Assembly (NCBI GenBank): GCA_017478025.1
Contig: JAFVGZ010000003.1
Coordinates: forward strand, 1 to 64,000
Reading direction: 5' to 3'
Length of the DNA: 64,000 bases
DNA from: Prevotella sp.
Lineage (GTDB): Bacteria > Bacteroidota > Bacteroidia > Bacteroidales > Bacteroidaceae
Shown: piece by piece, positions 17,223 to 60,362 of the stretch
Layout of the letters: each line of letters starts with the position of its first letter
Position numbering within the stretch: the stretch's first letter is position 1
Position numbers and translations under genes: made by a program
The notes under the pieces: model-generated
Database searches by the model: none
Told to the model about the DNA's origin: nothing
The model's input: the letters and a program-made list of their open reading frames with translations, nothing else

Positions 17223-17240
17223 TTGAGCGCAATGAGGGAA

Positions 17241-17394
17241 GTTACTCACATCGGGTAGTTAAGTTACTCAGCTCGGGTAGTTAAGTTACTCAGCTCAAGG
17301 AGAAAAGTAGGCTAACGCAAGGAGTTAAGTAGGCCAACGCAAGGAGTTAAGTAGGCCATCGCAAGGAGAAAAGTAGGCCAACGTGGGGGAATTT
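17241..17394. repeat. Seven-unit array with exact 22-bp period
   Basis: Unit starts fall at 17241, 17263, 17285, 17307, 17329, 17351 and 17373, exactly 22 bp apart. The first three units begin GTTACTCA and the last four begin GTAGGCYA, so the period is kept while the sequence changes. The array lies between the DUF5686 gene and the infC promoter. There are no unique spacers, so it is not CRISPR. Confidence 0.85.
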
Positions 17395-36721: not shown

Positions 36722-37419
36722 CTTGCTTTTCTTAGGTTTTAATTAATTATGAGTACAAAGTTACTCAAATTTCTTGAATATGATGCGTTGTTTGGACAAA
36801 AAAGGTATATTTTAGGGCAATTTAATGAAAAAGTGTAAGTGTTTTTATACAGGCTTTGGATGTTGGTTGGTTAAGATTTAGTCATTTTCACTCTCTGCTT
36901 TTCTCTTTCTCCAATGGGAGGAGTGGAGTGGGGAATGTTGCATAAGTCCTATGCATGATTTACGAAAAACTTCCTATGGAAAAACCTCTAAAAAATCGCG
37001 AAAACTGCATCAGAGGAGCGAAAATGATGCTTCATCGGGTCCGCGAGTAACTTTGAGGGGGTTAAAGTTACTCGGGAACACCCTTAAAGTTACTCGCGGA
37101 CACCCTCAAAGTTACTCGCGGATAGGGCCAAAATTCGCCTATCATGCCGCTTTGTTGTTCCGTTTTTACCCTCTTGGAAAGACGGATTTTAACACATAAA
37201 AAAGCAACTGTCTATGTGACAGAGGATTACGTGTTTTTTAATTTTTTGCGATTATACGCGAGCAGAATATTTTTTGTGGAAAATATGCGACTGTAGAGCA
37301 CGAATAATTATGCAAAATCTGCATAAATGTTGTTTTTGTCCTATTTGCATAACTCAGGCAAGCATGACTCGGGGCTTCACACGTTCCTTTCTTTTTAACG
37401 GAACTTTGAGGGGTGTTGC
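36722..37419. other. Repeat-bearing gap inside the defence island
   Basis: No convincing gene. It contains a three-unit 22-bp-period array with an inverted flank (37041-37133), a small palindrome TTATGCA-AAATC-TGCATAA (37308-37326), and A/T-rich DNA next to the MmeI-like gene where its promoter must lie. Confidence 0.6.
37041..37133. repeat. 22-bp-period array with an inverted copy
   Basis: GTTACTCG recurs at 37067, 37089 and 37111, exactly 22 bp apart. The 19-bp block at 37103-37121 is the exact reverse complement of 37041-37059, so the array could form a large stem. Confidence 0.8.
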
Positions 37420-48140: not shown

Positions 48141-48764
48141 ATGCCAAGAGGGAGCTGGCGAGTGGCTTTACCTCAGTTCCTGAGTAACTTAATACAAGGT
48201 TCTCTTTAGTCAGAAATTCTTGCTTCACATTGTTACGCAAGCGTCCCAAAGGCCAGAGCGGAGTAGTTCCGACACATTACCAAGCGTTGGTAATTGAGTT
48301 ACCAAGCCTTGGTAATGCGGTTACCAAGCCTTGGTAATCAGTTTACCAGCCTTTGGTAATCGTATTACTCGACTTTGGCCTCTCTTCGCATGTTGCTTAT
48401 CTTTAGCGGTACTCAGGCGATGAAAGCCCAGAGCAGGGCGTTTATCTACTTGAGAAAGTGAGTAACCTAAGACGCACTCCTGAGTAACTTAAGTCACGCT
48501 CCTGAGTAACTTAAGTCACGCTCCTGAGTAACTTGAATTGTCATAATTCAGAATAGATGAGGGAGGGGAGATTAATGCCTAAATCAAGATGTAGAGCGAA
48601 TTTGTTACTCTTTCCTTTACACAAGACCACTCCGTCATCATCACATGCGATGTTTTAGTAAGTTATAAATAAATAGAAAAAAAGGAGAAATGTTTTCATA
48701 TTTGAAATTTTATATTTAACTTAGCGCCCAATAACGTGATTTCTAAAACTAACAAGAAAAATCT
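48141..48764. repeat. Intergenic region with two 22-bp-period arrays
   Basis: 48277-48386 has TTAC-starting units at 48277, 48299, 48321, 48343 and 48365; the first four carry TTACCAAG...TTGGTAA palindromes. 48459-48540 has TGAGTAAC units at 48459, 48481, 48503 and 48525. 48223-48265 carries an ACGCAAGCGTC repeat also seen near 31060 and 60000. The last 150 bp are A/T rich and hold the promoter of the NSS gene, but no clear -7 box. No gene was seen. Confidence 0.8.
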
Positions 48765-50120
48765 ATGAGTTCTTTCTCGTCAAAACTCGGTGTTTTGTTG
48801 GCTGCTGCCGGTAGTGCTGTCGGATTGGGTAGTATATGGAAGTTTCCCTACGTTGTTGGTGAAAATGGCGGTGGTGCTTTCATCATACTTTATTTGGTGT
48901 GTTCATTGATTTTGGGACTGCCATTAGTGACCAATGAGTTTTTGATAGGTAAGTTGTCAGGCAAGACTATCTATGGGTCTTTTCGGGCTTTGACGGGGTC
49001 TAACCGATGGCAATGGCTCTCATGGCTGACAATTTTGACATCGACGCTCATTACGAGTTTCTATTTCGTAGTGACAGGATGGTGCTTCTTCTACATGGTT
49101 CAGGCTGCGATGGGTACCTTTGCAGGAATGGATGCAAATGCGCTGTCAGAATTCTTTTACACATTTGAGGGAGAGCCTGTGCAAATGATTTCTTATGCCG
49201 TCTTAGCCATTTTGCTGACAGCATCGGTATTGTGGTTTGATGTCAACAAGGGTATAGAGCGCCTGAGCAAGATACTCATGCCGATACTGTTCCTGATGCT
49301 GATAGTGATGGCAGGTCACATGATATTTATGGATGGTGGCACAACAGGCTTGCGATTCTTGTTTGAGCCGGATTTCTCTAAGATTACTACCAGGGCGGTC
49401 TTGGAGGCTGTCGGATTGAGCTTCTTTACGCTTTCGATTGGATTGGGAATCCTTGTCACATACGGTAGCTACATGCCCAAGGAACAGGAAACGGCATCTG
49501 ACGGTCAGAAAGAGAATGTATTGACGACGTCGCTACAGATGATACTGCTTGTTCTTGTTGTTTCGTTGTTGGCAGGTATGATAGTCTTTCCTGCGGTATT
49601 TGCATTCGGTCTAAGTCCTGCAGAAGGTCCCGAACTGACGTTTGTAACATTACCAGAGGTATTTCTGCACATGTTCAGCCCCACGTTGACGAGTGTATCA
49701 TTCTTTGCGCTGATGAGTGTAGCAGCCATAACATCGACTATCTCTATGATGGAGGTGATGGTAGCCTTTGTGCGTGAGGCATCTGAGGATACCAAGTGTC
49801 CGCTCAACAGGCATCAGAGCGTAATTATTGTCGCTGTGATACAGGTGATTACCAACACGTTGTGCGTGTTGTCCATGACGGGTGCTGTCAGCGGTCTCAC
49901 GGTGATGGGGCAGAATCTGTTTGATGCAGCCAATAACCTTACCACCGATATATTGATTCCGCTGGGAGCAATGGGAATAGCTGTGTTTGCAGGATGGTTC
50001 CTTCCTAAGAATGACTATAACGGTTCAAATGTGATAGCACAGATACATCAGTTTACCCTGCGTTGGATTGTACCTATCGCAATCATTACCATTTTCCTGA
50101 AAACAATGAAAGTATTTTAG
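48765..50120 (+). CDS. Sodium-dependent NSS (LeuT-type) transporter
   Basis: This 451-residue membrane protein matches the neurotransmitter:sodium symporter family. TM1 has the unwound sodium/substrate loop in GSAVGLGSIWKFPYVVGENG. A second binding region is GLSFFTLSIGLGILVTYGSY (TM6), and SVAAITSTISMMEV marks TM8. About 11 helices are predicted, as in many bacterial members. These carriers import amino acids or related amines with Na+. It precedes the NRPS gene by 48 nt on the same strand and could supply an amino-acid precursor or retrieve a product; that link is inference. Confidence 0.92.
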   Translation: MSSFSSKLGVLLAAAGSAVGLGSIWKFPYVVGENGGGAFIILYLVCSLILGLPLVTNEFLIGKLSGKTIYGSFRALTGSNRWQWLSWLTILTSTLITSFYFVVTGWCFFYMVQAAMGTFAGMDANALSEFFYTFEGEPVQMISYAVLAILLTASVLWFDVNKGIERLSKILMPILFLMLIVMAGHMIFMDGGTTGLRFLFEPDFSKITTRAVLEAVGLSFFTLSIGLGILVTYGSYMPKEQETASDGQKENVLTTSLQMILLVLVVSLLAGMIVFPAVFAFGLSPAEGPELTFVTLPEVFLHMFSPTLTSVSFFALMSVAAITSTISMMEVMVAFVREASEDTKCPLNRHQSVIIVAVIQVITNTLCVLSMTGAVSGLTVMGQNLFDAANNLTTDILIPLGAMGIAVFAGWFLPKNDYNGSNVIAQIHQFTLRWIVPIAIITIFLKTMKVF

Positions 50121-50168: not shown

Positions 50169-53100
50169 ATGAAAAATACGGAACAATTATCAAATGCACA
50201 GTTGCCTACATACGAAGAGGGCAAGCAATGGTATGCAGAGAACTTTGACTGCAGCGAGACCTTCAGTCAACTCATCCCCGATTTAGAGGAAACAGAACAA
50301 GAGGCAAGCAGTTTTTCACGCGAGATGAGCGTGAGTCCTGACGCTGTCGAAGCTTTCTGCAAGAAGCATTGTGTATTCAAGAGCACCTTCTTTGCTGGTG
50401 TATATAGTTATCTGTTGGCAAAATACAACAACGACCAAGAGGTGCTATTCGGCATTGTTGACCACAATGGTGCTGACGAGCAGTTGAGCATGGAAGGCAG
50501 TCAGCCAGAAGCATTCCCCGTCTATGCGAAGTTCTCCAATGACACCACGGTACTCAACTTCCTGAAGTCCGTAGAGGAGCAGACAAATGGTTGCCGTGAG
50601 CATAAGTCATATTCCATTATGGATGCCTTGAGCGACCTCATGCTGCAGATTGGTTCATACTTTGCATGGAACGGTCGTGTGGAGGACTTTGCAGAATTGA
50701 GTGTTCCGCTATATATCACAACTTCCGTGCAGGAAGGAAACTGCATCGTTACAGCAACATATCATGCTAATCTGTATTCGGAACAACTGATAAGCCAGTT
50801 CCTTGAGAGTTATGAGGCTGTGGTGGAGGGTTTCCTCAAAGAGGAGACGCTGTGCAATGTCAGCATTACGTCAAAAGCACAGGTGGAATTGCTTGACACT
50901 TTCAACCAGAACGATGTGGCTTACGACGATACGCAAACCATAGTATCGCTGTTCTGCCGGCAAGTAAAGGCAACACCTGAGAATATCGCGGTTGTCTTCA
51001 AGGATAAGAAATATACATATAAAGAGGTAGATGAGATAAGTGACCGCATTGCTGGTTATATAAGTGAAAAGTTAAGAGTGAAGAGTGAAGAATCAAACTC
51101 TCAACTCTCAACTCACAACTCTCAACTCTCAATTCAGGAGCCTGTAGTTTCTGTCCTTATCCCTCGTAGTGAGTGGATGGCTATTGCTTCTTTGGGCGTA
51201 CTGAAGGCCGGGTGCGCTTATCAGCCCTTAGACCCAAGCTATCCTAAGGAGCGTCTGAACTTCATGATGCAGGATGCTTCTGCTAATATGCTGATAGCAG
51301 ACGAGGAGTTGCGAGACATCGTGGATGAATATCAGGGCGATGTGCTCCTCACTAAGGATATCAACAACCTGCCTGCCCTTACAGAGGAACAAAATTCTTC
51401 ACTCTTCACTATTCACTCTTCACTCAAACCCTCCAGTCTCTTCATCATGCTCTACACCTCTGGTTCTACAGGCGTGCCTAAGGGTTGTCAGTTAGAGCAC
51501 GGCAACCTCGTCAGCTTCTGCCATTGGTATCAGCGCTATTATGACCTCAAGCCTGAGCACAATGTGGCTGCATACGCCAGCTATGGCTTTGATGCCTGCA
51601 TGATGGATATGTATCCGGCTCTGACCTGTGGTGCCTCAGTATATATTATACCTGAGGAGCTGAGGTTGGATCTCATTGCTCTCAACGAATACTTTGAGCA
51701 AAACAACATCACGCATTCATTTATGACGACGCAGGTGGGTTATCAGTTTGCCACGAGCATAGAAAACCACTCGCTGAAACATCTCTCTGTAGGCGGCGAG
51801 AAACTGGCTACCTTAGTTCCACCAACGAATTATCAGTTGCATAATGGCTACGGACCTACAGAGTGTACGATTTTTACTACCATATATCCCATAGCCCAAA
51901 AAGAAAAGGAGATACCTATCGGCAAACCTACAGACAACACACACTTATATATTGTTGACCCTCAGGGTCGTCGCTTGCCTGTTGGTGCAGCAGGAGAACT
52001 GTGGGTCAGCGGTCCGCAGGTAAGTCGTGGCTACCTTAACCGTCCGGATAAGACAGCTGAGGTATATATCAACAACCCATTCTCCGGAATATCCGGAAAA
52101 TACTCTCGCTGCTATCGCTCTGGCGATATAGTGCGCTATCTCCCTGACGGCAATATCCAGTTTGTGGGGCGTCGTGACGGTCAGGTGAAGATACGCGGCT
52201 TCCGTATAGAGCTGAAAGAAGTGGAGGCTGTCATTCGTGAGTTCCCAGGCATCAAGGATGCTACCGTGCAGGCCTTTGACGAAGAAGGTGGCGGCAAGTT
52301 CATAGCTGCCTACATCGTCAGCGACGAGCAGGTGGATATAGAGGCGATGAACAATTTCATCCTCGACCAGAAACCTCCATACATGGTGCCTGCCGTAACG
52401 ATGCAGATAGAGGCTATTCCGCTGAACCAAAACCAGAAGGTGAACAAGAGAGCTCTGCCTGAGCCTGTGAAGTCTGTTGCCGCATCGCAACAAGGCGAGC
52501 AGGCTCCGATGAACATCCTGGAGCAGGAGATACACAAGATAATTGCCGAGATTGTCAATAACGAGGACTTTGGCATTACTACCATACTGGGTTATGCAGG
52601 CCTGACATCTATCATGGCCATCAAACTCGCTATACAGATAAACAAACGCTTTGGAGTGACTCTGGATTCCAAAGCTTTGGTCAAGACGGGTAGCGTACAG
52701 AGCATCGAGAACGAGATACTGGAAGCTCTTATGAGCGGAAATGGTGTAGCCAAGCAGGAAACGGCTGATGTGAAGCATGCAGACATGAGTAATATCCCAT
52801 TGTCTTACGCGCAGATGGGTGTCTATGTGGATTGCATGAAGCAGCCAGAGTCAACCATTTACAATACTCCTGTCATAGCCAAGTTCCCGAAAGATGTGGA
52901 CATCAAGCTTCTTGTCAAGGCTATGGAGACACTTGTTAAAACCCATCCTATTCTACAGGCACATTTCGGTAGTGCGGGTGCAGAGATAGTACAGACGGTT
53001 GATCTCAACCAGCCTGTTGAGATTGTTCAAAGCAAGCATACGGAAGAGGAATTCCCAAGCTACAAGCTAGAGTTCGTGAAGCCTTTCAACCTGAGGCAAG

Positions 53101-56100
53101 GTCCTCTCTATCGCATAGAGATTGTCACTACCGAAGAGCATGTTTATCTGATGATGGACATTCATCACCTCGTTGTGGATGGTGGTTCGTTTGACGTTCT
53201 GCTGTCGCAACTGTTTGATTTGCTTAACGGTAAGGAGATTGAACCCGAGACATTCACCTATGCGGACTTTGTGGCTGCACAGAAAGATGCAGAGAATAGT
53301 GAAGAATATGCAGAAGCACGCAACTTCTTCCAGGAACAACTGGGCAAGGTGGAGGGCGTTACGGAAGTACCGGCAGACCTTACCAATCCTAAGGAGCAGG
53401 GAATAGTAGGAACCATATACACACCTCTGAGCTTTGATGAAATAGATGGTTTCTGCCGCACTCGAAACATCTCTCCAGCACATCATATCCTTGCTGCAAC
53501 ATTCTATGCGCTGTCACGTTTCACCAACAACAAGCAGCTTTGCATCACCACTATCAGCAATGGTCGCTCAGACCTGCGCATCAGCAATACTGTGGGTATG
53601 TTTGTCAATACCTTGGCGCTTAGTGCAGAGATTGGTGAGCAAAGCGTGATAGAGTTCATCAACGAGACAAGCAAGAACTTTGATGAGACGTTGCGCCACG
53701 AGAGCTATCCCTTTGCACGCATCGCCTCTGAATATGATCTCTCGGCAGAGATTATGTTTGCCTACCAGATGGGTGTCTTAGATGATTTGCAGTACAAGGG
53801 GCAGACAGTAACTATGGAGACTTTCGAGAGTGATACGCCAAAGTTCCGTATTGCCTTCTTTATCCAGAACGATCCAGAGGGCAAGCCGAGCATTTGCCTG
53901 CAATACGACAATGGGCGCTACAGTAAGGAACTGATGCAGAGCCTGGCACAGTCAATCAGCAATGCTGCTAATACCTTCATGAGCAATCCTGATGCTAAGC
54001 TCAAGAGCGTTTCGCTGCTTGATGACAAGCAGACAGCTTTGCTCGACAGTTTCAACAATACGGAAGTACCTTATGACAACACGCAGACCATCATCTCGTT
54101 GTTCCGCAAACAGGTAGAGAGCGTTCCTGACAACATAGCCGTGATTTATCACGATGTGCGCCTGACTTATAGGCAGGTGGACGAGATGTCGGATCGTATC
54201 GCTGCGTACCTTATCAGAAAAGGACTTAAGAGCGAAGATGTTGTTTCTATCATAATTCCTCGTGGCGAGTGGATGGTTGTTGCTTCTTTAGGCGTACTGA
54301 AGGCCGGTTGTGCCTACCAGCCGCTTGACCCAAGCTATCCTAAGGAGCGACTGAACTTCATGATGCAGGATGCTTCTGCCAAGTTGCTGATTGCTGATGA
54401 GGAACTGCGAGACATCGTTGATGAATTCCAGGGTGAGGTGCTCCTTACTAAGGATATAGAAAAACTTCCTGCTCTTACTGAGGAAGAGAATTCTTCACTC
54501 TTCACTCTTCACTCATCACTTAAGCCCAACAGCCTCTTCATCCTGCTCTACACCTCAGGCTCTACGGGCGTGCCAAAGGGCTGTCAGCTGGAGCACGGCA
54601 ACCTTGTATGCTTCTGCCATTGGTACCAGCGTTACTATGACCTGCATCCTGGTGACAAGGTGGCTGCATACGCCAGCTACGGCTTTGATGCAAACATGAT
54701 GGATATGTATCCGGCACTTACCGCGGGTGCTACAGTCGTGATTGTGGGTGATGATATACGTCTGAACCTGCCTGACCTGAATGCTTATTTCAATGAGGAG
54801 GGTGTAACCCATTCGTTCATGACAACACAGGTGGGATGCCAGTTTGCAATGAACTGCGATAACCATTCGCTTCATCACCTCTCTGTAGGAGGAGAGAAGA
54901 TTCTGCCGCTTACCCCGCCTGCGGGTTATAAACTCCATAATGCATACGGACCTACAGAGTGTACCATCTTCACTACTACCTATCAACAGACAGAGTTCGA
55001 GCAGAATGCTCCTATTGGCAAGCCGCTGGACAACCTGCAGCTGTTCATTGTTGATAAGGATCTGAACCGCCTTCCATTAGGTGCTGCCGGCGAAATGCTG
55101 GTATCAGGTCCGCAGGTGAGCCGAGGCTACCTGAACCTGCCCGAGAAGACCGCCCAAACCTACATACAATGGAATGGCAAGCGCTGCTACCGCACAGGTG
55201 ACGTGGTGCGCTATCTGGCTGACGGCAATATCCAGTTCGTGGGACGTAGTGACGGTCAGGTGAAGATACGTGGTTTCCGCATCGAGCTGAAAGAGGTGGA
55301 ATCGGTAATCCGTGAGTTCCCTGGCATCAAGGACGCTACCGTTCAGGCTTTTGACTATGATAACGGAGGCAAATACATTGCCGCCTATATCGTTAGCGAC
55401 GAACAGGTAGATATCAAGGAGCTGAACGATTATATCGGCAAGCAGAAACCACCTTATATGATACCTGCTGCCACGATGCAGATTGACAGCATACCGCTGA
55501 ACCAAAACCAGAAGGTGAACAAGAAAGCTCTGCCTGCCCCTGTCATCCAGGCTTCTGAACATGAGTATGTGGAGCCGGTCAACAATACGGAGAGACTCTT
55601 CAGTAACATCTTCTGCGAGGTGTTGTCTATGGACAAGGTGGGTGCTACCGATAATTTCTTTGAACTTGGCGGAACATCACTCATGGTGACCAAGGTTATC
55701 ATCGAGGCAGACAAGGCTGGGCACCATGTGGCATACGGCGATGTGTTCTCACATCCTACGCCACGACAGCTGGCACAGTTCGTAACGGGAGAGACAACGG
55801 CAGATAATGGCGACGATGAGGTAACGAACTTCGATTACTCAGGCATCGATACCCTCCTGCAGCAGAATAGGGTAGAGACATTCGTCAAAGGTGAGCGCCA
55901 GCAGCTGGGCAATGTGCTCCTTACCGGAGCTACTGGCTATCTGGGCATCCACGTCTTGCGCGAGCTTATCGACTCTGACGCACCGACAATCACATGTCTC
56001 GTGCGCGGACAAGACCAGAAAGCTGCTGAGAGAAGACTGAAGAACCTCCTCTTCTATTATTTCGAGAAATCATGCAAGGAGCTCTTCGGTACCCGTCTCT

Positions 56101-57017
56101 TCGTTGTCAACGGAGACGTGACGCAAGACATGACAGCCCTCATCCCTCAGCTCTCTTCTCACGTTGACACCGTCTTCAACTGTGCCGCCAATGTGAAGCA
56201 CTTCTCTAAGACCTCAGACATTGAGGACGTGAACATAGGCGGAGCACAGCGATGCGTGGACTTCTGTCTGAAGACTGGAGCAAAACTGGTGCACATCTCT
56301 ACGACCTCCGTTGGAGAGTTGTGGATAATACGCAACGATGGCGAGGACGTGCCTAAGCTCGATGAGCGCAAGTTTTGGTTCGGACAGTTCCTCGACAATC
56401 GCTACATCCACTCTAAGTTCCTTGCTGAGCGAATCGTTCTTGACGCTATTGCCCACCAAGGTCTTAGCGCTAAGGTGATGCGTGTGGGCAATCTTGCACC
56501 GCGTAGCTACGATGGTGAGTTCCAGGTCAACTTCAATAGCAATAGCTACATGGGACGTCTCAAGGTGTTCTACACGCTTGGGTGCTGCTCGTATGACGAT
56601 TATGACGAGCTGACCGAGATGTCGCCTATTGACCAGACGGCAAAGGCTGTGGTGCTCCTTGCTACCACACCAAAGGAGTGCAACGTCTTCCAGCCGTTCA
56701 ACAATCACACCGAGCTTCTGGGCGACATATTGCAACGCATGGAGAAGGTAGGAAGAGACATACGTTTCGTAGAGGCAGATGACTTCGATAAAGCCCTTAC
56801 CGAAGCAGGACAAGATCCAGAAAAGGCTAAGTTGCTCTCCGCTATGATGGCTTATCAGGACATGGCTCACGGTCAGAAGACGGGCATCATAGAGCGCGAC
56901 AACCGCTACACCTGTGCTGTACTCCATCGCCTCGGCTTCCATTGGAGCGACACAGCCTGGGACTATGCAGAGCGACTGCTCACAGCCATTAGCGGTTTCG
57001 GTTACTTCGATAAATAA
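50169..57017 (+). CDS. Two-module NRPS with terminal reductase
   Basis: This 2282-residue synthetase reads as follows. About 15-245 is the C-terminal half of a condensation domain with no HHxxxDG. A1 is about 265-760 (LYTSGSTGVPKG at 428, GYGPTE at 560, Lys757). T1 has its phosphopantetheine Ser814 in AGLTSIMA. C2 is about 875-1290, with HHLVVDG at 999-1005. A2 is about 1300-1785 (LYTSGSTGVPKG at 1460, Lys1782). T2 has Ser1837 in LGGTSLMV. R is about 1915-2282, with GATGYLG at 1920 and Tyr2079-x3-Lys2083. Reductive release of a dipeptide aldehyde is expected, perhaps cyclising to a pyrazinone as for AusA. Hand-aligned A-domain codes are DAMFSGGIFK and DAMFSGAIFK, suggesting the same or similar residues. 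No phosphopantetheinyl transferase gene is in the window. Heptamer and octamer arrays lie in frame. Confidence 0.93.
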   Translation: MKNTEQLSNAQLPTYEEGKQWYAENFDCSETFSQLIPDLEETEQEASSFSREMSVSPDAVEAFCKKHCVFKSTFFAGVYSYLLAKYNNDQEVLFGIVDHNGADEQLSMEGSQPEAFPVYAKFSNDTTVLNFLKSVEEQTNGCREHKSYSIMDALSDLMLQIGSYFAWNGRVEDFAELSVPLYITTSVQEGNCIVTATYHANLYSEQLISQFLESYEAVVEGFLKEETLCNVSITSKAQVELLDTFNQNDVAYDDTQTIVSLFCRQVKATPENIAVVFKDKKYTYKEVDEISDRIAGYISEKLRVKSEESNSQLSTHNSQLSIQEPVVSVLIPRSEWMAIASLGVLKAGCAYQPLDPSYPKERLNFMMQDASANMLIADEELRDIVDEYQGDVLLTKDINNLPALTEEQNSSLFTIHSSLKPSSLFIMLYTSGSTGVPKGCQLEHGNLVSFCHWYQRYYDLKPEHNVAAYASYGFDACMMDMYPALTCGASVYIIPEELRLDLIALNEYFEQNNITHSFMTTQVGYQFATSIENHSLKHLSVGGEKLATLVPPTNYQLHNGYGPTECTIFTTIYPIAQKEKEIPIGKPTDNTHLYIVDPQGRRLPVGAAGELWVSGPQVSRGYLNRPDKTAEVYINNPFSGISGKYSRCYRSGDIVRYLPDGNIQFVGRRDGQVKIRGFRIELKEVEAVIREFPGIKDATVQAFDEEGGGKFIAAYIVSDEQVDIEAMNNFILDQKPPYMVPAVTMQIEAIPLNQNQKVNKRALPEPVKSVAASQQGEQAPMNILEQEIHKIIAEIVNNEDFGITTILGYAGLTSIMAIKLAIQINKRFGVTLDSKALVKTGSVQSIENEILEALMSGNGVAKQETADVKHADMSNIPLSYAQMGVYVDCMKQPESTIYNTPVIAKFPKDVDIKLLVKAMETLVKTHPILQAHFGSAGAEIVQTVDLNQPVEIVQSKHTEEEFPSYKLEFVKPFNLRQGPLYRIEIVTTEEHVYLMMDIHHLVVDGGSFDVLLSQLFDLLNGKEIEPETFTYADFVAAQKDAENSEEYAEARNFFQEQLGKVEGVTEVPADLTNPKEQGIVGTIYTPLSFDEIDGFCRTRNISPAHHILAATFYALSRFTNNKQLCITTISNGRSDLRISNTVGMFVNTLALSAEIGEQSVIEFINETSKNFDETLRHESYPFARIASEYDLSAEIMFAYQMGVLDDLQYKGQTVTMETFESDTPKFRIAFFIQNDPEGKPSICLQYDNGRYSKELMQSLAQSISNAANTFMSNPDAKLKSVSLLDDKQTALLDSFNNTEVPYDNTQTIISLFRKQVESVPDNIAVIYHDVRLTYRQVDEMSDRIAAYLIRKGLKSEDVVSIIIPRGEWMVVASLGVLKAGCAYQPLDPSYPKERLNFMMQDASAKLLIADEELRDIVDEFQGEVLLTKDIEKLPALTEEENSSLFTLHSSLKPNSLFILLYTSGSTGVPKGCQLEHGNLVCFCHWYQRYYDLHPGDKVAAYASYGFDANMMDMYPALTAGATVVIVGDDIRLNLPDLNAYFNEEGVTHSFMTTQVGCQFAMNCDNHSLHHLSVGGEKILPLTPPAGYKLHNAYGPTECTIFTTTYQQTEFEQNAPIGKPLDNLQLFIVDKDLNRLPLGAAGEMLVSGPQVSRGYLNLPEKTAQTYIQWNGKRCYRTGDVVRYLADGNIQFVGRSDGQVKIRGFRIELKEVESVIREFPGIKDATVQAFDYDNGGKYIAAYIVSDEQVDIKELNDYIGKQKPPYMIPAATMQIDSIPLNQNQKVNKKALPAPVIQASEHEYVEPVNNTERLFSNIFCEVLSMDKVGATDNFFELGGTSLMVTKVIIEADKAGHHVAYGDVFSHPTPRQLAQFVTGETTADNGDDEVTNFDYSGIDTLLQQNRVETFVKGERQQLGNVLLTGATGYLGIHVLRELIDSDAPTITCLVRGQDQKAAERRLKNLLFYYFEKSCKELFGTRLFVVNGDVTQDMTALIPQLSSHVDTVFNCAANVKHFSKTSDIEDVNIGGAQRCVDFCLKTGAKLVHISTTSVGELWIIRNDGEDVPKLDERKFWFGQFLDNRYIHSKFLAERIVLDAIAHQGLSAKVMRVGNLAPRSYDGEFQVNFNSNSYMGRLKVFYTLGCCSYDDYDELTEMSPIDQTAKAVVLLATTPKECNVFQPFNNHTELLGDILQRMEKVGRDIRFVEADDFDKALTEAGQDPEKAKLLSAMMAYQDMAHGQKTGIIERDNRYTCAVLHRLGFHWSDTAWDYAERLLTAISGFGYFDK
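51064..51137 (+). repeat. In-frame octamer and heptamer run in NRPS A1
   Basis: GAGTGAAGAGTGAAGA is followed by about six AACTCTC-type heptamers. It encodes roughly residues 299-323, which have no counterpart in A2. Similar runs lie between genes elsewhere in the window. Confidence 0.75.
51391..51426 (+). repeat. TTCACTCT octamer run in NRPS A1
   Basis: Four or so octamers of TTCACTCT type encode NSSLFTIHSSLK, just before the A3 core motif. Confidence 0.75.
54490..54523 (+). repeat. TTCACTCT octamer run in NRPS A2
   Basis: An equivalent octamer run encodes NSSLFTLHSSLK at the same structural position in A2 as in A1. Confidence 0.75.
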
Positions 57018-58478: not shown

Positions 58479-58973
58479 ATGGAAGTAATACAAAGTTTTA
58501 CAATCAATCACACAAAGCTGAAGCCCGGCATTTACGTCTCAAGGCAGGACAAAGGCTTCACCACTTTCGACCTTCGCATCACCGAACCCAACAAAGAGCC
58601 GGCTGTAGCTCCCTCAGCCATGCATACCTTGGAACATCTGATGGCCACATGGTTCCGCAACTCAAGGGTCAAGGACGATGTCGTTTATGTCGGACCGATG
58701 GGATGCCTCACAGGAATGTACATCATCATGACCGGCGATTATACCGTGCAGGATATGCGGGAACTCACGATGGAGTGCCTTGAGTGGATACAAACCCAGG
58801 ACTGTGTCCCTGCCACCACACCCGAGACCTGCGGCAACTACCTTCTCCACGACCTGCCAATGTGCAAATGGGAGTGCAAACGATACTTCGAAAGGCTGCG
58901 TGACGATTTCCACAGCGAATACGAAATGCTGGAAGTAATCCTCGAAGACGGACGCAGATTTGCTGATGCATAA
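58479..58973 (+). CDS. luxS: S-ribosylhomocysteine lyase
   Basis: This 164-residue enzyme cleaves S-ribosylhomocysteine to homocysteine and the precursor of autoinducer-2. Metal ligands are H49 and H53 in HTLEH and Cys118 in ETCGNY. The catalytic Cys76 lies in GPMGCLTGMY. The length is normal. It recycles the product of SAM-dependent methylation and may also signal. It is the last gene of the MBL-NUDIX-luxS run, followed by 1.4 kb of repeats. Confidence 0.97.
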   Translation: MEVIQSFTINHTKLKPGIYVSRQDKGFTTFDLRITEPNKEPAVAPSAMHTLEHLMATWFRNSRVKDDVVYVGPMGCLTGMYIIMTGDYTVQDMRELTMECLEWIQTQDCVPATTPETCGNYLLHDLPMCKWECKRYFERLRDDFHSEYEMLEVILEDGRRFADA

Positions 58974-59802: not shown

Positions 59803-60147
59803 AACAGAAATGAAGGACGGAAAAGGACAGAAAGGGACAGAAATTAATAGACTCCGAGCTTTGCTCGCCTGAGCACCTATGAAAAGAAAGAAATGAGCGA
59901 AGAATTAAGATAATTTAGCTCGCGCAGTTGGGCTATCTGACAACGAAGAATTAAGATAATCCAAGTTTCGGAAGTGCGCCCTTTCTTGCTCCACGTTGTT
60001 ACGCAAGCGTCTCCTACGTCGCCGAGCGTCGCGGGGCGAGGACGCCCACGTCCCCTGTGGATGCTCGTAGTATGCGTAAAAGCAGGGTACATCATATTGA
60101 ACAACCTACCTCCGAAACTTGAATCAATAAAAACAAAAATGCTAGCA
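59803..60147. other. Gene-free stretch with short dispersed repeats
   Basis: It contains TTAGCTCGCGCAGTTGGGCT (from 59915; also near 61087), an ACGCAAGCGTC repeat (near 60001) and a GC-rich block near 60020-60055. No real gene was seen; the frames present are short and repeat-derived. Confidence 0.5.
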
Positions 60148-60362
60148 TTTTTTCTCGCACATCTCAAAACTTAATCGTACCTCTGGCTTTGCCGAAGGTG
60201 CTTCGTCTTGGATATGCAATAAAAATTGCAGGCACTTTTTCTTGCACATCTCAAAACTTAATCGTACCTCTGGCTTTGCCGAAGGTACTTCGTCTTGGAT
60301 GTGCGATAAAAATTGCAGGCACTTTTTCTTGCACATCTCAAAACTTAATCGTACCTTTGCAC
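60148..60362 (+). promoter_or_regulatory. Three 87-bp repeat units ending in the DUF4199 promoter
   Basis: ATCTCAAAACTTAATCGTA recurs at 60161, 60248 and 60335, exactly 87 bp apart. Units 1 and 2 end TACCTCTG, one base off consensus. Unit 3 ends TACCTTTGCACG (-7 at 60352-60359), 25 bp before the gene. TTG-N20-TA spacing is kept in all three. Each full unit has small palindromes, including CGAAGGTGCTTCG. Confidence 0.8.

Follow-up and report, generated by a model that had tools for sequence, protein, structure and literature searches.

What does a two-module NRPS of Prevotella make when the condensation (C) domain at its front is only half present, and is that half domain peculiar to a single gene? 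Prevotella is abundant in the rumen of livestock, and the NRPS family described below offers a defined, testable product class. A large rumen survey counts 934 NRPS clusters in Bacteroidaceae, none of which is given a named product in the part of that survey drawn upon here (PMC8241843). The gene of interest occupies 50169..57017 (+ strand) of the window, by which we mean the whole 64,000-nucleotide stretch of Prevotella sp. DNA that was analysed. The original prediction described it as a complete two-module assembly line of the form (partial C)-A-T-C-A-T-R encoded by one gene, and this was borne out by an intact ORF of 2282 aa, with an ATG start and no internal stops, and by its order of Pfam domains (AMP-binding twice, AMP-binding_C twice, PP-binding twice, a single Condensation domain at residues 875-1292, and NAD_binding_4 at 1918-2160). 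Behind the half C domain and A1 lies T1, whose phosphopantetheine-attachment serine is Ser814 (52608..52610, +), followed by the C domain that couples the two residues (52791..54044, +; Pfam PF00668), with HHLVVDG at residues 999-1005. A2 is followed by the T2 carrier domain (55605..55784, +; Pfam PP-binding at 1813-1872), which carries Ser1837, and by the R thioester reductase domain (55920..57014, +), which has GATGYLG and YxxxK motifs.

The gene was compared with its relatives in a set of 90 near-full proteins, the window's included, obtained from 99 rows after six were dropped for low coverage and three because they were identical to others over the last 1500 aa. Both carrier serines and the lysines of both A domains are kept in 90/90 aligned rows, as are the four checked residues (H, H, D, and G) of the HHxxxDG motif of the second C domain (C2). 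The three glycines, Tyr, and Lys of the R domain are kept in 89 of the 90, and the position chosen for its catalytic Ser/Thr varies among these rows. A scan of 84,980 species genomes returned 471 relatives of the NRPS. Among the best 80 of these 471, 57 are titled Prevotella, Prevotellaceae, or Bacteroidales, 22 bear other Bacteroidota names, and one is titled 'bacterium', with many of the 80 titles naming rumen, omasum, or reticulum samples or RUG bins, which we take to be rumen genomes. Whole genomes were also screened with the N-terminal 255 aa: of 398 from the window's genus, 73 gave a match, and of 393 spread over the order, 3 did, the window genome included. The BLASTP check suggested for the gene found relatives that cover most of the protein at 48-86% identity in their best segments, and we assign the enzyme to their family. 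What had been proposed as a possibly undescribed product of a Bacteroidales species is not the work of a lone new cluster; the enzyme has a large family of relatives, and the accessible part of PMC2812497 describes a related NRPS cassette in Methanobrevibacter. Among the paper listings and excerpts that it covered, a literature search found no earlier account of this NRPS family.

Extent and history of the starter C domain

The claim of a partial C domain stood and could be refined. The first 255 residues of the protein score 30.5 bits against the Condensation profile, for which the cut-off is 30.6, and they match only profile positions 190-339 of 456; HHxxxD is absent from this N-terminal part. 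Together with the alignment of relatives, the profile places a remnant, the C-terminal lobe of a starter C domain, at residues 14-255 (50208..50933, +). The catalytic N-terminal lobe with HHxxxDG is gone, while most relatives examined (79 of 90) have the domain whole. Among these 79 complete domains, 77 carry HHxxxD and two have LHxxxDG instead. The starter C was scored as partial in six of the 90 proteins and as missing in five, but two of the six (L021 and the second copy of L030) and one of the five (L048) are cut by a contig end, and these three remain in the set without being counted as losses. This leaves four true partial forms (the window, L029, L049, and L031) and four that truly lack the domain and start at A1 (L070, L073, L077, and L082). 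L017, which is outside the 90 and cut at its other end, also starts at A1, and a genus-level genome scan added a 2287-aa frame (G193) resembling that of L029, with which it may share an organism.

The domain layout is present in many separate assemblies, so it is neither chance nor an assembly error, and like trimming in the separate assemblies of L029, L049, and L031 rules out an assembly artefact behind the trimmed domain. A 5' frameshift or annotation error is ruled out as well, since only 48 bp separate the stop of the upstream symporter gene from the ATG of the NRPS. A tblastn search with a complete starter C detected no N-terminal lobe in the window stretch (L002) or at the L029, L049, and L031 loci, the last of which offers ~490 bases upstream before the contig end. 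A MKNTxxLSxxQ motif hints that the window protein may begin at the old family start and have then suffered an internal deletion, but the alignments do not place the start there.

The alignment shows the same N-terminal lobe to be missing from the window, L029, and L049; these three also have in common a 15-residue internal deletion in the C-terminal lobe, the only one of two proposed shared deletions that the alignment contains. None of the four partial forms retains a GMxVKT-like stretch, in place of which L029, L049, and L031 have a gap of seven residues and the window has unlike residues plus one gap. When a tree is built from the remnant region, the same three proteins cluster at a node given without a support value beside L039, with which the support is 100, and L031 falls among complete relatives with a support of 84. 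Forcing the four trimmed forms into one clade costs 62 log-likelihood units in a quick tree (p-AU 0.005), which rejects a single origin and indicates that the catalytic lobe was lost at least two times independently, separately in L031. The whole starter C appears to have been lost once more in the L070 clade, as judged from the nesting of this clade among complete relatives in one FastTree tree of a recombining family, a tree in which the trimmed L029 also has the complete L053 as its neighbour. The window lies outside this pair in the core tree, which speaks against a simple history, and we attribute the adjacency of L029 and L053 to recombination. Synonymous divergence between L029 and L049 is 0.41 in the remnant and >1 in the other regions, and between L029 and L053 it is 0.39 in C2 and beyond saturation in the remnant and A1. 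From this unevenness it follows that exchange of modules or domains is frequent and that the core tree is a blend. The new element at this locus is the partial starter C, that is, an unusual and recurrent trimming of the first domain in a widespread family of known logic.

Selection has continued to act upon what is left. The dN/dS of the remnant is 0.10 between the window and L029 (dS 1.5) and 0.11 between the window and L049, both of which are rough ratios at a dS of 1.5-1.6, and 0.19 between L029 and L049 (dS 0.41). The dN between the window and L029 is 0.16 in the remnant, about twice that of A1, C2, and R (0.07-0.08), making the remnant the fastest of the four regions measured. In complete relatives, the median dN/dS is 0.25 for the region equivalent to the remnant (318 pairs), 0.20 for the N-terminal lobe (166 pairs), 0.15 for A1 (281 pairs), 0.15 for C2 (247 pairs), and 0.21 for R (441 pairs), taken over pairs with dS of 0.15-1.5 that are not independent of one another. 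The remnant is under purifying selection and, relative to the rest of the protein, is held under about the same constraint as inside a whole C domain. Given this constraint, it most likely serves as a structural platform for A1. A constrained remnant would also suit acylation in trans, in which it would dock a separate acyltransferase or a stand-alone C domain, and the available part of PMC10548850 describes such a partner for a C-less NRPS in a Streptomyces aldehyde pathway. However, the nine window proteins scanned with Pfam include neither an acyltransferase nor a C domain of this kind, the window's own genome (84.7% complete) has a single NRPS match at E <= 1e-30 (two of eight first-look candidates were scored), and the trimmed clade also lacks the 15-residue piece of the C-terminal lobe, all of which makes this arrangement improbable.

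The starter C may never have acylated, or may already have been dispensable, such that full and trimmed enzymes both make free dipeptide aldehydes or pyrazinones. Repeated loss of the lobe or of the domain is what one would expect of a dispensable part, HHxxxDG has given way to LHxxxDG in the two complete rows noted above, and plain pyrazinones have been credited to enzymes with the C-A-T-C-A-T-R layout in the part of PMC10979478 at hand, so the presence of a complete starter C does not by itself establish acylation, nor does losing it establish a changed product. Nevertheless, a useless domain would not show purifying selection, and the median of 0.20 for the N-terminal lobe together with the 77 of 79 domains that retain HHxxxD argue that the complete starter C is kept for use; we consider the reading in which its loss leaves the product unchanged possible, but rather unlikely. 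The starter C of L023 has the C domains of the tyrocidine and bacitracin synthetases as its nearest structures, and we know of no description of these as starter C domains.

Adenylation codes and exchange between A1 and A2

The hand-read codes of the original prediction, DAMFSGGIFK for A1 (50952..52493, +, ends approximate) and DAMFSGAIFK for A2 (54102..55514, +, the final Lys being K1782), both proved right when anchored on the core motifs; in A1 the code residues are 475, 476, 479, 518, 540, 542, 560, 568, 569, and 757. To our knowledge neither code matches that of a characterised substrate; the codes closest to these are of the Val/Ile types, agreeing at 6 of 10 positions, and aliphatic substrates for both A domains would be our weak guess. 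Over the 99 rows, duplicates included, A1 has 36 code forms and A2 has 12 when nine positions are read, and thus substrates probably vary within the family. The near identity of the two codes had been taken as a sign of a homodipeptide or of two similar residues. In the window, A1 and A2 share 82-88% DNA identity over a tract that includes code positions 235, 236, and 239, and 64-76% over the stretches that hold the remaining pocket positions. The tract is one that gene conversion homogenises in relatives; part of the likeness is consequently due to gene conversion between the A domains, although the pocket positions beyond the homogenised tract still agree except for one. In L029, A1 and A2 are identical over 180 aligned bases, where the A1 domains of L029 and L023 differ by 12-19%. 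In four genes (L029, L023, L039, and the window), A1/A2 identity drops right after the FDAxMMDM motif, to 50-64% over the next 90 bases, and the pattern in these sequences is that of A1/A2 gene conversion within one gene, apparently ending just past the first pocket residues.

Loops of both A domains also contain in-frame heptanucleotide repeats, which were detected with TRF. In A1, (AGTGAAG)4 and (AACTCTC)5, also read from the sequence, lie at 51063..51136 (+), and (TCTTCAC)4 lies at 51396..51425 (+), ahead of the YTSGSTG motif; the TCTTCAC repeat recurs at the equivalent place in A2 (54492..54520, +). Across the 2.9 Mb genome, (TCTTCAC)3 with at most two mismatches has 201 partly overlapping matches versus one for the reversed pattern. 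The counts for AACTCTC are 19 versus 19 in the control, which is uninformative because that control is the same repeat in another register. For arrays of at least four units among the 90 family genes, the raw counts are 15 within this part of A1 and 13 within the corresponding part of A2, and the unit sequences vary. Phase variation through these 7-base repeats was considered and has no evidence in its favour, as L003 changes frame at another place, near residue 1700.

Release, known relatives, and the proposed product

The analysis supports reductive release by AusA-type logic in a Bacteroidales enzyme whose A domains both fall in a single code class. The nearest solved structures to the T-R part are 6vtj (307 bits) and the AusA R domain 4f6l (155 bits), with MxaA at 67 bits. 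R domains may reduce twice, to an alcohol. Reduction could accordingly continue to a dipeptide alcohol, or another enzyme could trap the aldehyde; R domains of this superfamily do both and MxaA is among the structural matches, but the AusA R domain scores far above MxaA and we regard either fate as quite unlikely. The 6vtj entry is a Methanobrevibacter ruminantium M1 protein according to the part of PMC8097023 used here, and these R-domain relatives, along with the AusA precedent as far as it is laid out in the available text of PMC12153313 and PMC8210680, point to a dipeptide aldehyde.

AusA, the aureusimine synthetase of Staphylococcus aureus, which loads Val and then Phe/Tyr to yield a pyrazinone, has the A-T-C-A-T-R order and reductive release in common with the window NRPS and is given as a six-domain enzyme in the part of PMC12153313 consulted. 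Its equivalog, NF047350, is the best NCBIfam match of the window NRPS, aligned over residues 197-2265 with 1073.1 bits versus a curated cut-off of 2500 bits, and an identification of the window NRPS as AusA was rejected on that score. Profile position 352 aligns to window residue 197 (window 50757 onward), and hence AusA seems to be ~155 residues longer at its N-terminus, where it too may have a degenerate C domain. The two systems, likened here by profile and R-domain structure, also differ in that AusA has a partner PPTase gene, ausB, beside it, whereas the scanned neighbours of the window NRPS include no PPTase.

The mru0068 gene of M. ruminantium M1 is described as an NRPS cassette of two C-A-T modules, for which the available portion of PMC2812497 gives a thioesterase ending in its text and a thioester reductase in its Figure S8 legend. 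Its neighbours in that genome are serine phosphatases, an anti-sigma-factor antagonist, and a MatE exporter (PMC2812497), a set akin by description to the SpoIIE, STAS, and MATE neighbours of many window relatives. In contrast, the window NRPS has a half starter C, and an SNF symporter in place of SpoIIE, STAS, and MATE. Gut synthetases of the C-A-T-C-A-T-R layout (ruminopeptin; BGC0001686) are reported from Clostridium and Ruminococcus, and their products, in the parts of these sources that were available, are N-acyl or free dipeptide aldehydes that act as protease inhibitors (PMC8518294, PMC12327764, PMC10979478). The window NRPS likewise couples two A-T modules through a C domain that carries its active-site motif, and it ends in a reductase. 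Compared by description only, these gut enzymes have a complete starter C, whereas the window NRPS is from Bacteroidales and has lost the catalytic half of its own.

We give a probability of roughly 55% to the reading that the window NRPS would make a hydrophobic dipeptide without N-acylation, released as a putative aldehyde and cyclised to a pyrazinone. A1 would load the first amino acid onto T1 and A2 the second onto T2, the C domain would join both, and R would reduce the T2-bound thioester with NAD(P)H to yield a dipeptide aldehyde. An ancestral starter C ahead of A1 probably acylated the first residue; in this lineage, the loss of its catalytic half, as well as of a 15-residue piece of the other half, would leave the amine free. 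Lacking a catalytic starter C, the enzyme would be expected to leave the amine unblocked, and the amine could then attack the aldehyde and close the ring, first to a dihydropyrazinone and from that to a pyrazinone. The half C that is left would be kept as a platform for A1, and the upstream SNF symporter may import a building block. As far as the available parts of PMC12153313, PMC8210680, and PMC8518294 extend, these papers set out how AusA arrives at pyrazinones and describe dipeptide aldehydes with an acyl group from gut bacteria. A far broader and more doubtful extension is that gut and rumen Prevotella might switch product class by halving a domain, such that recurrent, independent loss of the lobe would turn N-acylated dipeptide-aldehyde protease inhibitors into free-amine aldehydes that form pyrazinone signals, the dead C-terminal lobe being kept under selection as a scaffold for A1 and recombination spreading the halved form between lineages. 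Natural pairs of full and trimmed enzymes offer a direct test of the effect of the starter C upon the product and of whether the half C suffices to keep the assembly line intact. A product that acts as a protease inhibitor or as a pyrazinone signal, should it prove to be either, could have a bearing upon gut protein breakdown or signalling.

Gene neighbourhood

An SNF-family sodium:amino-acid symporter of 451 aa (48765..50120, +; Pfam PF00209) ends 48 bp upstream of the NRPS, and its best full-length structural match is chain 4us3 (265 bits), presumably MhsT, which is a carrier of hydrophobic amino acids. In 76 loci examined over up to 10 kb per side, the window included, the recurring neighbours are a SpoIIE phosphatase (58 loci), a STAS protein (48), a porin-like protein (32), a MATE exporter (22), SNF (17), and a PPTase (9), with all group names apart from SNF assigned by reading the sequences rather than by a family search. 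Between 40168 and 64000, the SpoIIE, STAS, and MATE groups are absent and the symporter is the only flanking group represented; four SpoIIE domains are encoded elsewhere in the window's genome. The lack of these neighbours would fit an NRPS gene that is an inactive leftover with zero product, but its 2282 open codons, its intact checked motifs, and a dN/dS against L029 of 0.05-0.10 in each of the four regions measured render this very unlikely. The one PPTase match of the genome is on contig C41, the NRPS being on C1, and this PPTase gene comes after an ORF (L001 242-1788) that by eye resembles another SNF symporter.

We also considered whether the lactamase-fold, NUDIX, and luxS genes downstream form a conserved cluster with the NRPS and found this unsupported, as none of them belongs to a neighbour group of at least four loci; the group that contains the lactamase-fold gene is smaller. 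The luxS gene (S-ribosylhomocysteinase) lies at 58479-58973, two genes past the lactamase-fold gene that follows the NRPS. Repeats also occur elsewhere in the window, where positions 1-403 consist of an 89-base unit repeated 4.6 times (95% matches, TRF) and 60145-60356 of an 87-base unit repeated 2.4 times (96% matches). Finally, 22-base repeats are found between or near genes at 17239-17383, 37064-37122, and 48277-48534, some units of which look mutually reverse-complementary.
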